A model generated the notes under the pieces. It did not search any database. It was not told the DNA's origin and saw nothing but the letters and a program-made list of their open reading frames with translations. Positions 1,572-32,829 of a DNA stretch of 64,000 bases are shown piece by piece (the first letter of the stretch is position 1; each line of letters opens with the position of its first letter). Position numbers and translations under genes: made by a program. Source of the stretch: Sphingomonas sabuli (GTDB taxonomy: Bacteria; Pseudomonadota; Alphaproteobacteria; Sphingomonadales; Sphingomonadaceae); NCBI RefSeq assembly GCF_014352855.1, contig NZ_CP060697.1, forward strand, positions 1,570,001 to 1,634,000. Direction: 5' to 3'.

Positions 1572-2402
1572 TCAAGCCCGGGTCAAGAGTACCGCCCGGT
1601 CCCGTCCGCCGAAGTCCTTGGCAATGCTGGATTTCAGCCCGTCGCGTTCAAGCAGGGGGCGCGCCGCGGCGGCTTGGCCGGCGCCGATTTCGACCGCGGC
1701 CAGCCCACCTGGATTGAGCAGGCGCGGAATTTCGGGCGCCAGCCGCCGGATGCAGTCGAGCCCGTCCGGACCGGCGAACAGCGCCTCGTCGGGCTCATGT
1801 TCGGCCACTCCGGGACCGAGCTCCTCGTCCTCGGCGACATACGGCGGATTGCACAGGATGAGGTCGAATCCCTCGGCGATGCCGTCGGCCCAGTCGCCCA
1901 GCTTGAACTTCGCCCGATCGTCGAAGCCCAGCCGCCGGGCATTGGCCGACGCGTAGGACAAGGCCCGCCGCGAACTGTCGACCCCAATGCCCGTTGCCTT
2001 CGGCCACAAGTCCAGCGCCGCCAGCAGGAGCGTGCCCGGACCGGTACCAAGGTCGAGGATCCGGCCCGGCCCGTCAGCCTTGCCTTCGAAATGCGCGATC
2101 GCGGACGCAATCAGCACTTCGCTGTCGGGTCGCGGCACCAGCACGCCCGGGCCGACATGAATGTCGATGTCCCAGAAGGCGCGGCGGCCGGTGATATAGG
2201 CCACTGGCTCGCCCTTCGCCCGGCGTTCGACCATCGTCCAGAACCGCTTGGGCGGATCCTTGTCCGGCGGGTTGAGCAGCAGCTTGTCGCGGTCGATGTT
2301 CAAGGCCTCGGCCATCAGCAGCTCGGCGTCGAGCCGCGCCGTGTCGCTGGTCAGGGTCAATTGCCGCGCCGCTTCGTCGAGCGCGCGTGTCAGCGGCTTC
2401 AC
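1572..2402 (-). CDS. prmC: Release factor glutamine methyltransferase PrmC
   Basis: PrmC N5-methylates the Gln of the GGQ motif in release factors RF1 and RF2. The 276-residue protein has the expected N-terminal helical domain, the SAM-binding loop DLGTGPG at residues 117-123, and the catalytic NPPY motif at 185-188. The gene follows its own substrate gene prfA and overlaps it by 4 nt (GTGA). The start is therefore GTG. The last gene of the hisS-prfA-prmC operon. Confidence 0.95.
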
Positions 2403-3478
2403 GCGTCTTCCAGACCCGCCAGCCGCTGGGCCTCGTCCTCGGCGATCAAGGCTTCGGTCAATTCGCCAAGCCCGGGTCCTTCAAGGATCGCCTCCAGCTT
2501 GTGCAAGGTCAGGTTGATCCGGTGATCGGTCACGCGCCCCTGCGGGAAATTGTACGTGCGGATCCGCTCCGACCGGTCGCCCGATCCGACCATCGACTTG
2601 CGCGCGCCGGCCCGCTCGCTGGCCAGCCGCTCCCGTTCCAGTTCGAAGAGTCGCGTACGCAGTACCTTCAGCGCCTTGGCCTTGTTCTTGTGCTGCGATT
2701 TTTCGTCCTGCTGGATGACGACGAGGCCGGACGGCAGATGGGTGATGCGCACGGCGCTGTCGGTGGTGTTCACCGACTGCCCGCCGGGGCCCGACGAGCG
2801 ATAGACGTCGATGCGCAAATCCTTGTCGTCGATCTGGACGTCGACATCCTCGGCTTCCGGAAGGACCGCGACGGTCGCCGCCGACGTGTGGATCCGCCCG
2901 CCCGCTTCGGTCACCGGCACCCGCTGGACCCGGTGCACGCCGCTTTCGAATTTCAGCTTGGCGAACACCCCCGCCCCGGTAATCGACGCCACGGCTTCCT
3001 TGTAGCCGCCAAGCTCGGACGCGCTGGCGGAGATGAGTTCGAAGCGCCAGCCCTGCTCTTCGGCGAAACGCTGGTACATGCGCAGCAGGTCGCCGGCGAA
3101 CAGTGCGGCCTCGTCGCCGCCGGTCCCGGCGCGCACTTCCAGCATGGCCGGCCGCTCGTCCGCGGCATCGCGGGGCAGCAGCTGGACGGCTAGTGCACGC
3201 TCGGCGTCGGGCAGCTTGCGCTCGATCTCGTGCAATTCCTCTTCGGCCATCGCCCGCATCTCGGCGTCGGCGTCGCGGGTCATTGCCGACAGGCTCTCGC
3301 GTTCGGCGCGCAGCCGGCGAACTTCGCGAGCCGCGGCGGCCACCGGCTCGATCGCGGCATAATCCTTGGACAGGCGAACGAACTCTTCCGCCGACAGCTC
3401 GCCGCTTGCCATCTGGTCGGCAAGTTCCTGCTTGCGCGCCTCGATCGACGCGATGCGGTCCGACGAAATGCCCGTCAT
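2399..3478 (-). CDS. prfA: Peptide chain release factor 1
   Basis: RF1 recognises UAA and UAG stop codons and triggers peptide release on the ribosome. At 359 residues it is of normal length. The codon-recognition PxT motif is PVT at 188-190, and the GGQ catalytic motif is at 232-234 within SGPGGQSVN. The start ATG overlaps the hisS stop by 4 nt and the end overlaps prmC. An intact RF1 implies that UAG is an ordinary stop codon here, which bears on the E2 gene near 31.2 kb. Confidence 0.97.
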
Positions 3479-27166: not shown

Positions 27167-27664
27167 CTAGCGGACTTGCAGCGCCTCGACCGACCCGCCG
27201 GGTCCCACGGCGAACAGCATACCATAGTCGCCGTCGCCAAGCGGCCCGGGTTTGGTCCCGCCGAACTGGGCGACAAGATCCGGGACGGTGTTGCTATGTC
27301 CCACGACAAGCACCGAGCCTGACGCCGCAGCGATTGCGGCGGCAAGCGCGGCGGGGTCGCGGGGGTCGTAAGGCGTCACGTCGAACCCAAGCTGGGCCGC
27401 CAGCGGCGCGGCGGTTTCCATCGCCCGCCTGGTCGGCGTCGCGAACGCCGCGACAATGCCCTTGGCCTTGAGCATGCCCGCCAAGGCCTGCGCATTGGCC
27501 GCGCCTTCGGCCGTCAGCGACGGATCGTCGCCCGCGCCTTTTTGCAGATGGCGAATGACATAAACGGTCTTCTGCGCAGTTGCCGAGGTTGCCGGCGCCT
27601 GCGGCGTGACCGTCGTACAGGCGCACAAGATCGCCGCCAGCATCGCCATGAAAATCGTCTTCAT
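27167..27664 (-). CDS. Histidine phosphatase-like lipoprotein
   Basis: A 165-residue protein of the phosphoglycerate-mutase/histidine phosphatase fold. The start at 27664, preceded by AGGGGGACAGG, gives a lipoprotein-like signal (MKTIFMAMLAAILCAC). The first catalytic motif is VYVIRHLQKGAGD (RH present, followed by LQK instead of the usual GE/AE). The second His is in VLVVGHSNTVPDL. It should act on a phosphoester in the periplasm or at the membrane; the substrate is unknown. Confidence 0.8.
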   Translation of the reverse strand: MKTIFMAMLAAILCACTTVTPQAPATSATAQKTVYVIRHLQKGAGDDPSLTAEGAANAQALAGMLKAKGIVAAFATPTRRAMETAAPLAAQLGFDVTPYDPRDPAALAAAIAAASGSVLVVGHSNTVPDLVAQFGGTKPGPLGDGDYGMLFAVGPGGSVEALQVR

Positions 27665-27793
27665 CCTGTCCCCCTGTTCTTCGCGCCCGTCTTGCCAGCC
27701 TGCGCCGGGTCGCGTCGAGTCCGCGCTCGACCGCTCGACGAACGGATCGACCAACGGCGGCGCGCAGTTGCCGCATCCGCGACTCCCGACTAA

Positions 27794-29070
<1,277 letters not shown>

Positions 29071-29071
<1 letters not shown>

Positions 29072-30084
29072 TGGCGACGATGAACATGATCCAGGCGCTC
29101 AACAGCGCCCACCGCGTAACTATGGAGCGCGACGAGGACATCGTCGTCTATGGCGAGGACGCGGGCTATTTCGGCGGCGTCTTCCGCGTCACCGAGGGCC
29201 TGCAGAAGCAGTTCGGCAAGCAGCGCTGTTTCGACGCGCCGATCAGCGAATGCGGCATCGTCGCCACCGCGGTCGGCATGGCGGCCTATGGCCTCAAGCC
29301 CGTGATCGAAATTCAGTTCGCGGATTACATCTATCCCGGTTACGACCAGATCGTCAGCGAGGTGGCGAAGATCCGTTATCGCACCGCCGGCGAGTGGAGC
29401 ATGCCGATGGTCATCCGCTCGCCCTATGGCGGCGGCATCTTCGGCGGCCAGACGCACAGCCAGTCGCCGGAAAGCCTGTTCACCCATATCGCGGGCCTGA
29501 AGACGGTCATCCCGTCGACGCCCTATGACGCCAAGGGCCTGATGATCGCGGCGATCGAGGATCCGGACCCGGTAATTTTCTTCGAGCCCAAGCGCATCTA
29601 CAACGGCCCGTTCGACGGCCACCACGACAAGCCGGTCAAGCCGTGGTCGAAGCATCCCGCAAGCGACGTGCCCGACGGCCATTACACCGTTCCGATCGGC
29701 AAGGCGGCGGTGGTGCGCGAAGGCGCGGACCTGACCGTTCTGGCCTATGGCACGATGGTCCATGTCGCGCTGGCCGCGGTCGAGGAAGACGGCATCGACG
29801 CCGAAGTGATCGACCTGCGCAGCCTGTTCCCGCTGGACATCGACACCATCGAGCAATCGGTAAAGAAGACCGGCCGCTGCGTCGTCGTCCACGAAGCGCC
29901 GCGCAACACGGGCTTCGGCGCGGAGCTGGTCAGCCTGGTGCAGGAGCGCTGCTTCTATCACCTGGAAGCGCCGATCCAGCGCGTAACCGGCTGGGACACG
30001 CCCTATCCGCACGCCTATGAATGGGCTTACTTCCCCGGCCCGAAACGGATGAAGAAAGCCCTCGAGAAAGTGATGGCCGACTGA
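29071..30084 (+). CDS. bkdA2: Branched-chain 2-oxoacid dehydrogenase E1 beta
   Basis: The beta subunit of E1, 337 residues, forming an alpha2-beta2 tetramer with the preceding gene product. Recognisable stretches are DEDIVVYGEDAGYFGGVFRVT, FDAPISECGIVATAVGMA and IQFADYIYPGYDQIVSEVAK. The C-terminal transketolase-like domain contains VIDLRSLFPLDIDTI. ATG 29071 is fixed by overlap with the alpha-subunit stop. The stop overlaps the E2 start by 3 nt (TGATG). Confidence 0.94.
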
Positions 30085-31379
30085 TGGCGAAGTACGAATT
30101 CAAGCTGCCCGACATTGGCGAAGGCATTGCCGAGGCCGAGATCGTGGCGTGGCACGTCAAGGTTGGCGATGCGGTCGAGGAAGACCAGCAGCTGGCCGAC
30201 ATGATGACCGACAAGGCGACGGTGGAAATGGAATCGCCGGTCGCGGGCAAGGTCGTCAGCCTGGCCGGCGAAGTCGGCGACCAAGTGCCGATCGGGTCCG
30301 TCCTCGTCGTCATCGAAACCAGCGCCGAGGCGGCCGAAGCCGCGGAAGGTGCCGCGGATCTTCCCGACGAGTCCACCGAAGAGCGTCCGCTCGGTGACGG
30401 TGCCGCGGACCCGACTCCGGCGCAGGAAGAAAAGCTGCCGGTAACGGCGGTCGAAAACGAACCGAAGGCCAGGGAAAAGCCCAAGGCGCCCGAGCCCAAA
30501 GCCGAGCCGGAAGTGGCCAAGGCCGCGTTGGTCCTCGCCTCGCCGGCCGTGCGCGCCCGCGCCCGCGACATGGGGATCGACCTCAACCAGGTGAAAGCGC
30601 GCGACAGCCGCATTCGCCATGCCGACCTCGATGCCCACATCCTTCATCGCGGCGGCAGCGTTGCGGCTCGCGGCGGGTCGCCGGGCCGGCCGGACGAGAC
30701 GATCAAGGTCGTCGGCCTGCGCCGCAAGATCGCCGAGAACATGGCGGAAGCGAACAGCCGCATCCCGCATTTCACCATCGTCGAGGAATTCGACGTCACC
30801 GCGCTGGAAGACACGCGCGCGATGATGAACCGCGACCGTGGCGACAATCCCAAGCTGACCGTGCTGCCGTTCCTGATCACGGCGATGTGCCGGGCGCTGG
30901 CCGACTATCCGATGCTCAACGCGACGTTCGACGACGAAGCGATGGTCGTCACACGCAAGGGTTCGGTCGACATGGGCGTCGCGACGCAGACGGACAACGG
31001 CCTAATGGTGCCGGTCATCCGCAATGCAAGCAGCATGAGCGTGTGGCAGCTGGCGGCCGAAATCTCGCGCCTGTCGGACGCTGCGCGCACCAACAAGGCG
31101 AGCCGCGAGGAACTGACCGGCCCCAGCTTCACTATCTCCTCGCTGGGTCCGATGGGCGGCATCACGTCGACGCCGGTGATCAATCCGCCGCAGGTGGCGA
31201 TCGTCGCGGTCAACAAGATCGACGAAAAGCTGGTCCCGATCGACGGCTAGATCGAAATCCGCAAGCGGATGAACCTGTCGCTGTCGTGCGACCACCGCGT
31301 GGTCGACGGCTGGGACGCAGCGAACTTCCTCAACGACATGAAGCCGCTGATCGAAAATCCGCTGCGCCTGCTCAGCTAG
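30084..31379 (+). pseudogene. bkdB: Branched-chain dehydrogenase E2 interrupted by an in-frame TAG at 31248-31250
   Basis: The dihydrolipoyl acyltransferase core of the complex. Residues 1-388 are intact: lipoyl domain with Lys44 (MTDKATVE), an Ala/Glu/Pro linker, the E1/E3-binding domain (SPAVRARARDMGIDL) and most of the catalytic domain. TAG at 31248-31250 follows KLVPIDG. The same frame then continues to TAG 31377-31379 as IEIRKRMNLSLSCDHRVVDG onward. The catalytic His motif DHRVVDG therefore lies beyond the stop. Full length would be 431 residues plus stop. One C-to-T change (CAG to TAG) would explain it. It may be a pseudogene, a sequencing error or read-through. Confidence 0.9.
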
Positions 31380-31391
31380 GAAGGACCTCCG

Positions 31392-31478
31392 ATGGACACG
31401 AAGAAAGTCCTGGTGTTCGCGTTGCTCGCCGCGGCCGTCCTCATCGCCCTGGCGGCCGGGATGCGCCTCGGTCACTGA
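31392..31478 (+). CDS. 28-residue single-span membrane peptide
   Basis: A very short ORF, MDTKKVLVFALLAAAVLIAL then AAGMRLGH. It consists of a short charged start, one hydrophobic helix and a basic end. AAGGACCTCC is placed 4-12 nt upstream, and the gene lies 12 nt after the E2 reading frame ends. Such peptides are usually missed by automated annotation. The function is unknown. Confidence 0.45.
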   Translation: MDTKKVLVFALLAAAVLIALAAGMRLGH

Positions 31479-31489
31479 CCCGCGGCGGA

Positions 31490-31738
31490 TCAGCCTTTCG
31501 GCTTCTTGAGGTCGTGCCAGCTCTTCTCGCTTAGCTCGACGTCATATGTCTTCGCTGCAGCTTCGATGCGCTTCCACGCCGCGTCGCGTTCGGCATCGGT
31601 GACATCCTCCACCTGGTTGAAACGGGCGACGGCATTGCGGACGTGCGATGCGTCCTCAAGCGGCTCCTTGCGCTGCTTGGGGAAAGCGAACTTGCTGTCC
31701 TTGAGTTCGTCGCGGTCGTCGGTCGAAAGCTCGGCCAT
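31490..31738 (-). CDS. DUF6582-type small protein
   Basis: An 82-residue protein resembling the DUF6582 family found in phages and alphaproteobacteria. The recognisable block is FAFPKQRKEPLEDASHVRNA, VARFNQVEDVTDAERDAAWK and AAAKTYDVELSEKSWHDL. It is soluble and charged, with no membrane segment. GAGGAG is placed 11 nt before ATG 31738. The function is unknown. Confidence 0.8.
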   Translation of the reverse strand: MAELSTDDRDELKDSKFAFPKQRKEPLEDASHVRNAVARFNQVEDVTDAERDAAWKRIEAAAKTYDVELSEKSWHDLKKPKG

Positions 31739-31791
31739 GGCGTGTCTCCTCTCGACGGAGAAAACGCATGGCCGGGCCTCGCGGTTCGCGA

Positions 31792-32328
31792 TTAGGCGGC
31801 CAGCCGCACCGTTTCGCCGAGTGCCGAGCGGATCGATTCCTCCCGCTGCTCCGGCCCGATGGCGAGGCCGCTGGCGATCACGAATTCCGGTACGATACCG
31901 ATGAAGCCGAATACGCCGCGCAGGTAGGTTTCGACATGCTCCATCCCGGCCGCGGGGGACCCTTCGTCATAGAAGCCGCCACGGGCGACGGCGACAATCA
32001 CCCGCTTGTCACCGACCAGACCTTCGGGACCGTTGGCGCCGTACTGGAACGTCTTGCCGGCCACCAGGATGCGGTCGATCCACGCCTTGAGCTGGCTGGG
32101 AATGGTGAAATTGTACATCGGCGCGCCGATCACGACGGTGTCGGCGGCGAGGAATTCGTCGAGGATATGCTCGTCCTGCCCGCGTTCGGTCAGGTGCGGC
32201 AGCGGGTCGGCGGCAACGTCGCGATAGACGACGTCGTCCCGGCCGAGCCGGTCGACGATGGCCTGGGTGAGGGTCCGGCTGGCACTGGCCGCGCCGGTAA
32301 TGCTGCTGTCGATCTGAAGTACGGTCAC
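31792..32328 (-). CDS. azoR: FMN-dependent NADH-azoreductase (AzoR family)
   Basis: A 178-residue flavodoxin-like oxidoreductase that reduces quinones and azo compounds by two-electron transfer from NADH. Visible motifs are the phosphate-binding loop [18 protein letters not shown], the flavin-loop [18 protein letters not shown] and [20 protein letters not shown]. The start is GTG 32328, preceded by GGAGG. It is divergent from an HxlR regulator, with an operator-like dyad between, so it is probably induced by quinone-type electrophiles. Confidence 0.9.
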
Positions 32329-32340
32329 TATTGCCTCCTT

Positions 32341-32357
32341 GGTATTGATTCGATACC
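32341..32357. promoter_or_regulatory. Operator-like dyad for the HxlR regulator
   Basis: A 17-bp near-palindrome, GGTATtGAtTCgATACC, identical to its reverse complement at 14 of 17 positions. It lies in the azoR-hxlR divergent region, 13 nt from the azoR start codon. HxlR-family repressors of azoreductase genes bind such symmetric sites. The site overlaps the azoR leader, so binding would block azoR expression. Confidence 0.6.
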
Positions 32358-32454
32358 GAGGCACCCCAGATAACCATGCGAAAACGGCCCGCAAGAACGC
32401 ACTAATTTGTGGCGGACGAACAGGAATGTGGGCAAGGAACAGTGAGGTAACCGC

Positions 32455-32829
32455 ATGAAAGACCCGAACAATCCCGTCTGTCAGACGATCACCGGCCTGC
32501 TTCAGCGAATCGGCGACAAATGGAGCGTGCTGGTCGTGGAAACGCTGGGCGGGGGCTCGCTGCGGTTCAACGAACTGCGCCGCGCGATCCCCAGTGTGTC
32601 GCAGCGGATGCTGACGCTGACCCTGCGCAATCTCGAGCGCGACGGGCTGGTCAGCCGCACCGTGACCCCGTCGATCCCGCCCCGCGTCGATTACGAGCTG
32701 ACCGAGCTTGGCCAGTCGCTGACCAAGCCCATCTGCGGGCTGGTGCAATGGTCGATGGACAATGTCGGCGCGATCCACGCCGCGCAGGCCCGCTATGACG
32801 AAGGCCAGGACGAAGCGGCGGCGGCCTAG
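32455..32829 (+). CDS. HxlR-family transcriptional regulator
   Basis: A 124-residue winged-helix repressor. The family block is [20 protein letters not shown], then [20 protein letters not shown] and [14 protein letters not shown]. Cys9 occupies the position of the redox-sensing N-terminal Cys of YodB/QorR-type members, and a second Cys (Cys94) lies near the C-terminus. It probably senses quinones or diamide-like stress and controls azoR next door. Start preceded by GTGAGG. Overlaps the convergent membrane-protein gene by 4 nt. Confidence 0.9.

Follow-up and report, generated by a model that had tools for sequence, protein, structure and literature searches.

Gene organization around the interrupted E2 gene

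The window analysed here is a stretch of 64,000 nucleotides of the Sphingomonas sabuli contig NZ_CP060697.1, and coordinates refer to it unless another sequence is named. Between 27806 and 31379 it contains three overlapping genes, for the E1-alpha, E1-beta and E2 components of a 2-oxoacid dehydrogenase complex, the last of which is interrupted by an in-frame TAG:

27806..29071, plus strand: E1-alpha of a branched-chain 2-oxoacid dehydrogenase, 421 aa, open frame (solved-structure matches, ORF)
29071..30084, plus strand: E1-beta, 337 aa, open frame (translation, search)
30084..31379, plus strand: E2 gene, full frame (sequence and translation)
30084..31250, plus strand: E2 as terminated at the first TAG, 388 aa (Pfam scan, translation)
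31248..31250, plus strand: in-frame TAG, at a column that is mostly Glu or Asp in relatives (sequence, relatives' loci and proteins)
31251..31376, plus strand: tail of 42 in-frame codons, with the end of the acyltransferase domain and the motif DHRVVDG (translation, alignment)
31377..31379, plus strand: second TAG, the usual E2 end (sequence, translation, position of the end in genus relatives)

The start of the E1-beta gene overlaps the stop of E1-alpha, and its own stop (TGA 30082-30084) overlaps ATG 30084, which begins the E2 frame. The best solved structures matched by E1-alpha were 2bp7 and 1qs0 (2-oxoisovalerate dehydrogenase alpha), at about 511 bits over residues 13/14-414. This places E1-alpha closest to the Pseudomonas-type branched-chain E1, and the operon is thus identified as bkd. 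For E1-beta, the best match among those listed stood at 94% over 100%, and several of its matches carry the JGI name 2-oxoisovalerate dehydrogenase E1 component beta subunit. None of the three proteins matched an NCBIfam model above its curated cut-off, so that the assignment to the branched-chain type is founded on the solved structures and on the names given in the source databases. E2 lies in one operon with E1-alpha and E1-beta genes of this type; both of these are open, in agreement with an earlier reading that the operon structure is intact.

The E2 frame runs for 388 codons to TAG 31248-31250, then for 42 more in-frame codons to TAG 31377-31379. The first-pass annotation had placed the interior TAG at this position and frame of the bkd E2 gene, ahead of the active-site motif and 42 codons before a second stop, and sequence and translation agree with it in each respect, DHRVVDG lying downstream of the TAG. 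The nearest named relative by the E2 gene is Sphingomonas sp. RG327, whose full-length E2 (P0002) aligns with 83% identity straight across the stop, over residues 1-430. In the nearest genome (G043), 41 of the 42 tail residues are the same. Given this alignment across the stop and the match of the tail, the continuation of the frame is not a chance occurrence. Like the RG327 protein, a branched-chain E2 (dihydrolipoyl transacylase), the full frame comprises lipoyl, E3-binding and acyltransferase domains; the RG327 protein differs in having Glu at the TAG column and running on to the usual C-terminus.

Domain architecture of the predicted truncated product

Both N-terminal modules are complete in the truncated E2, namely the lipoyl domain (PF00364, residues 5-77, 70.3 bits against a cut-off of 22.1) and the E3-binding domain (PF02817, residues 150-182, 30.4 bits against a cut-off of 23.7). 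The acyltransferase domain is incomplete: the truncated protein covers positions 3-185 of the 232 in the Pfam model, whereas the intact relative covers 3-231. The DHRVVDG motif, which aligned with the same motif in the two best solved E2 proteins, lies after the stop, and the product thus has no complete acyltransferase domain bearing DHRxxDG. A structure model of P0002 had a mean pLDDT of 41.2, too poor for a fold search; in this low-confidence model the cut is predicted to fall between two strands, before the last helices, and the tail would comprise the final strand and the C-terminal helix.

The first-pass annotation had taken the loss of DHRxxDG to mean an inactive enzyme. In a study of the E. 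coli E2o (PMC5986005), substitutions of H375 left widely differing activities (H375N 0.5%, H375C 1.0%, H375A 2.1%, H375G 12.6% and H375W 59.4%), and at the preceding aspartate D374A left 2.1% and D374N 9.7%. Since some of these mutants keep activity, the histidine alone is not decisive, and its loss does not always inactivate; that the domain lacks its whole end argues more strongly for inactivity. Inactivity of the S. sabuli E2 accordingly remains likely, being the expected outcome of losing the whole of the last 42 residues.

Phyletic distribution of the stop and the ancestral codon

A search of the genus with P0002 as the query gave matches in 67 of 71 genomes (68 rows), and an inside stop was seen in the present genome only. 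Other genus genomes gave 67 rows, 66 of which span the stop column without a stop in them; the exception, G072, matches without reaching the column. The four genomes that gave no match are all in at least 100 contigs, and among the good genus genomes an E2 match was obtained in 52 of 53. In a draw from the family, 236 of 298 genomes matched, and among the matches listed the present genome was again the only one with an inside stop. Likewise, no stop within 60 residues before the motif was found in 70 named loci of the wider group (70 of 73 were read; L095, L104 and L109 gave no motif). The E2 proteins of genus relatives end at the 31377-31379 site or within a few residues of it, and none of the close relatives compared ends naturally at the interior stop, an outcome that the first-pass annotation had named as one of two that would refute it.

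The aligned column enabled us to consider the codon from which the stop arose. In 22 genus loci it is GAG 15 times, GAA six times and GAC once, and a later alignment of 23 stop-free sequences gave GAG 15, GAA 4 and GAC 4. At the protein level, the 120 nearest sequences have Asp (81), Glu (32) or Ala (7) at this position, with Glu in all four of the nearest (P0001-P0004); the nearest genome, G043, writes it as GAA. The 70 named loci are more diverse, with GAG (28), GAC (14), GAT (7), GAA (5) and GCC (4) as the common codons and AAG, GCG and CGG (3 each) and CAA, CAG and CGA (1 each) as the rare ones. Given that the column is mostly Glu or Asp, a one-step origin from GAG is likelier than one from CAG, and a single GAG-to-TAG change is the simplest source of the stop, as judged from the aligned codons.

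The first-pass annotation had proposed a single CAG-to-TAG change, which the Glu and Asp codons of the genus loci do not bear out. CAG was set aside as the likeliest source because Gln is absent from the 22 genus loci and the 120 nearest proteins, and rare (2 of 70) in the named loci. CAG does occur at this column in three loci from the order-level genomes (L027, L030 and L034), and also in a second E2 of the present genome (L001), which we take to be SucB-like.

Conservation of the codons after the stop

The absence of decay in the downstream codons, claimed from the first inspection, holds in the sense that the tail shows no clear decay in sequence comparisons. Against the nearest relative, codon counting gave 12.5 synonymous and 3.5 non-synonymous differences, and one residue of 42 differs. 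Neutrality of the tail appears unlikely once it exceeds roughly one quarter of the branch (P of 0.058 at 0.25 and 0.021 at 0.30) in a rough Poisson estimate that uses 42 codons, places half of the synonymous distance on the present branch and charges all pairwise changes to the present lineage.

An alignment of 24 of 30 genus loci (L112, L123, L127, L130, L134 and L135 were left out on account of their start pattern) was used to compare the regions before and after the stop. Two distances might hint at slight decay. On average, the tail stands at a non-synonymous distance of 0.149 from the other 23 sequences, a high value, but the sister sequence is just as far removed at 0.155. The 180 codons before the stop have a mean of 0.1465, which would put them third among the 24 sequences (the others range from 0.1205 to 0.1549); this is a slight excess, and one that a nonsense mutation does not need. 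Private changes at otherwise invariant columns number three before the stop, where counts of 0 to 4 occur among the 24 sequences, and none in the tail. If the stop is real, the absence of clear further decay implies that it is very young.

Bacterial nonsense pseudogenes typically carry a single in-frame stop and are otherwise intact. The present E2 gene resembles them in having one private stop with homology on both sides and stop-free relatives, and in the homologous frame continuing beyond the stop; it is unlike them in that no clear further decay follows.

Genetic code, release factor and read-through signals

The window also encodes the release factor that acts at UAG and UAA, RF1:

2399..3478, minus strand: prfA (RF1), open frame (NCBIfam, Pfam domains)

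This gene matches NCBIfam TIGR00019 at 478.3 bits, against a cut-off of 423.25, and its product has the PCRF and RF-1 domains. Stop codon usage was tallied in the genes compared between a 400 kb sample of the genome (C1:1400000-1799999) and G043; of these 118 genes, 54 end in TGA, 46 in TAG and 18 in TAA. Within the window, TAG ends the genes that we take, from their motifs, to be acs (38027), rpmA (51029), mnmA (16823) and an hspQ-like ORF (50097). The first-pass annotation had pointed to these four genes and to the presence of prfA in concluding that the code is not reassigned, and this conclusion stands, as TAG is a normal gene end and RF1 is intact. In the same set of compared genes, TAG is the terminator of 46 of 118 here and of 33 of 118 in G043.

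No CUA anticodon was found among 43 tRNAs (ARAGORN at 43 Rfam places), a set that is incomplete, as tRNA-Ile(GAU) is missing from the list. The predicted fold of the RNA on either side of the stop is just slightly better than those of its shuffles (z of -1.69; 16 of 200 shuffles were as good), and Rfam gave no match in 27500-32500. Two marks by which a programmed read-through might be recognized, namely a stop common to at least two species and either a UAG-reading tRNA or a missing RF1, were not seen in the genomes and tRNAs examined, and TAG is in use as a gene end, unlike in a code where it has become a sense codon. A survey (PMC7918605) describes in-frame stops surrounded by dN/dS below 1 as widespread in bacteria, and its large-scale part relied on stops common to two or more species. 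The present gene is like the read-through stops proposed there in having a TAG within flanks that look constrained, and unlike them in that its TAG occurs in no other genome among the matches listed.

Assembly quality and other interior stops

The genome is assembled as a single contig of 2,513,891 bases and is 99.96% complete. For the 400 kb sample, 172 ORFs of the nearest relative had a match, 128 of them in frames classed as coding (39,919 codons), and no frameshift was detected by the criteria used. Of the 172 best matches, 18 contained a stop. The coding-class ORFs contributed eight stop entries, five of which fall within 40 residues of the beginning of the query ORF and may reflect starts set too far upstream. 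Of the remainder, q946 lies near the edge of its match, q97 is followed by diverged sequence, and q889 looks to us to lie opposite a small YeaQ-type membrane protein. A further 19 stop entries fall in ten ORFs classed as not coding, on the ground that third positions account for no more than half of the differences. E2 is among these ten because its ORF extends upstream into a wrong frame; close to the stop itself, the first, second and third codon positions differ 1, 0 and 11 times before it and 1, 1 and 9 times after.

When at least 0.75 identity over 30 residues was demanded on both sides of the stop, E2 and a short fragment match, q785, alone remained. A later check found another matching ORF of the present genome over many of the stop places, leaving q718, q1035, q1058, q97 and q785 as a few weak cases. 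As neither a frameshift by these criteria nor, apart from q785, a comparable interior stop was encountered in the 400 kb, the consensus looks clean. A second sequence of the strain was not found, the nearest E2 among the matches listed being 82% identical; the E1-beta search for strain-level relatives used a database clustered at 90%, where the 94% match was the best among those listed.

Probable origin and consequences of the interior stop

We consider it probable that the TAG is a young nonsense mutation, private to this lineage, and that it leaves the bkd complex inactive. Most simply, an ancestral GAG codon for Glu would have turned into TAG through a single substitution in the strain or species, and RF1 would be expected to terminate translation at 31248-31250. 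The resulting 388-residue product would keep its lipoyl and E3-binding domains while losing DHRVVDG together with the closing part of the acyltransferase core. Transfer of branched-chain acyl groups to CoA by such a protein should fall short of the normal rate, and a normal core would probably not form; the 2-oxoacids derived from Val, Leu and Ile could then presumably not be oxidised by way of this complex. This reading is weakened by the retention of E2 in nearly all of the good genus genomes, among which a loss would be unusual, and a tail preserved almost perfectly is as compatible with an error or with low-level read-through as with a young mutation.

The first-pass annotation had offered a fresh loss of function, a sequencing error or programmed read-through. 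The first two remain the likely causes, with programmed read-through finding no support. An error in the consensus, in which case the living strain would have a sense codon there and make a normal E2, is the less probable of these two causes and still a serious one: the tail is conserved as in intact genes, the stop is seen in one genome only, and since neither the E2 nor the E1-beta search brought up an independent sequence of the strain, such an error would give the same picture. It is opposed by the single, nearly complete contig and by the 400 kb comparison, which held neither a frameshift nor a comparable stop except in the fragment q785. We regard it as improbable that the stop is read through, whether as a programmed event or at a low background, such that some full-length E2 is made. 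The preserved tail and the constrained in-frame stops of the survey (PMC7918605) would suit such a process; but the stop is private among the genomes examined, whereas the large-scale part of the survey used stops common to at least two species, and the intact prfA, the frequent use of TAG as a gene end, the lack of a CUA anticodon in the incomplete tRNA set, and the absence from the sample, q785 aside, of any further interior TAG flanked by strongly conserved sequence all speak against it. The RNA fold, at a z of -1.69 and with no Rfam match nearby, gives it no clear support. Still more doubtful is a version in which the TAG acts as a leaky switch, mixed cores of short and full-length E2 lowering branched-chain acid oxidation while selection keeps the tail.

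Two further readings appear very improbable, and to a like degree. The tail could be translated separately from the in-frame ATG at 31269, which begins 18 bases after the stop and would give 36 codons, and then join the truncated protein as a two-piece E2. However, relatives have the Met of this codon almost without exception, as part of RKRMNLSLSCDHR, so that it is no sign of a start, and inspection by eye revealed no clear ribosome-binding site before it. Alternatively, the truncated E2, with its complete lipoyl and E3-binding domains, could be kept for another role, for example as a carrier of the lipoyl group, but no selection on the short form is visible, the stop being private and the tail still looking constrained.

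As a private nonsense mutation, the truncated bkd E2 is a new instance of a familiar phenomenon and in that respect ordinary. If real, it would predict that Val, Leu and Ile cannot be used through the bkd complex although the operon looks complete at first sight, and a pathway call made from gene presence would be wrong in the present genome. The locus would also serve as a clear case of a nonsense allele of very recent origin.

Related genes and neighbours

The other pathway genes examined, and the other genes of the E2 type, are uninterrupted. The methylmalonate-semialdehyde dehydrogenase gene, mmsA, scored above its cut-off and has no inside stop, and the same is true, as regards the stop, of four matches to carboxyltransferases, of which two extend over nearly the full length. 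Three further E2-type genes are present in the genome, none with an inside stop. One of these belongs to the following cluster:

L190:13716-19248 (genome about 795715-801247), minus strand: E2-type gene adjoining a fused E1-alpha/beta (681 aa), an aromatic amino acid aminotransferase and a PaaE-like reductase (NCBIfam, neighbours)

In NCBIfam searches the aminotransferase of this cluster scored above its cut-off and the PaaE-like reductase below. Together with the fused E1, these neighbours point to an arylpyruvate rather than a branched-chain complex, and judging from this context the fused-E1 cluster looks like an arylpyruvate dehydrogenase for the breakdown of aromatic amino acids.

Directly after the E2 end, on the plus strand at window positions 31392-31478, lies an ORF of 28 codons, MDTKKVLVFALLAAAVLIALAAGMRLGH, preceded by a GGAAGGA-like site recognized by eye; it is possibly a small membrane protein.
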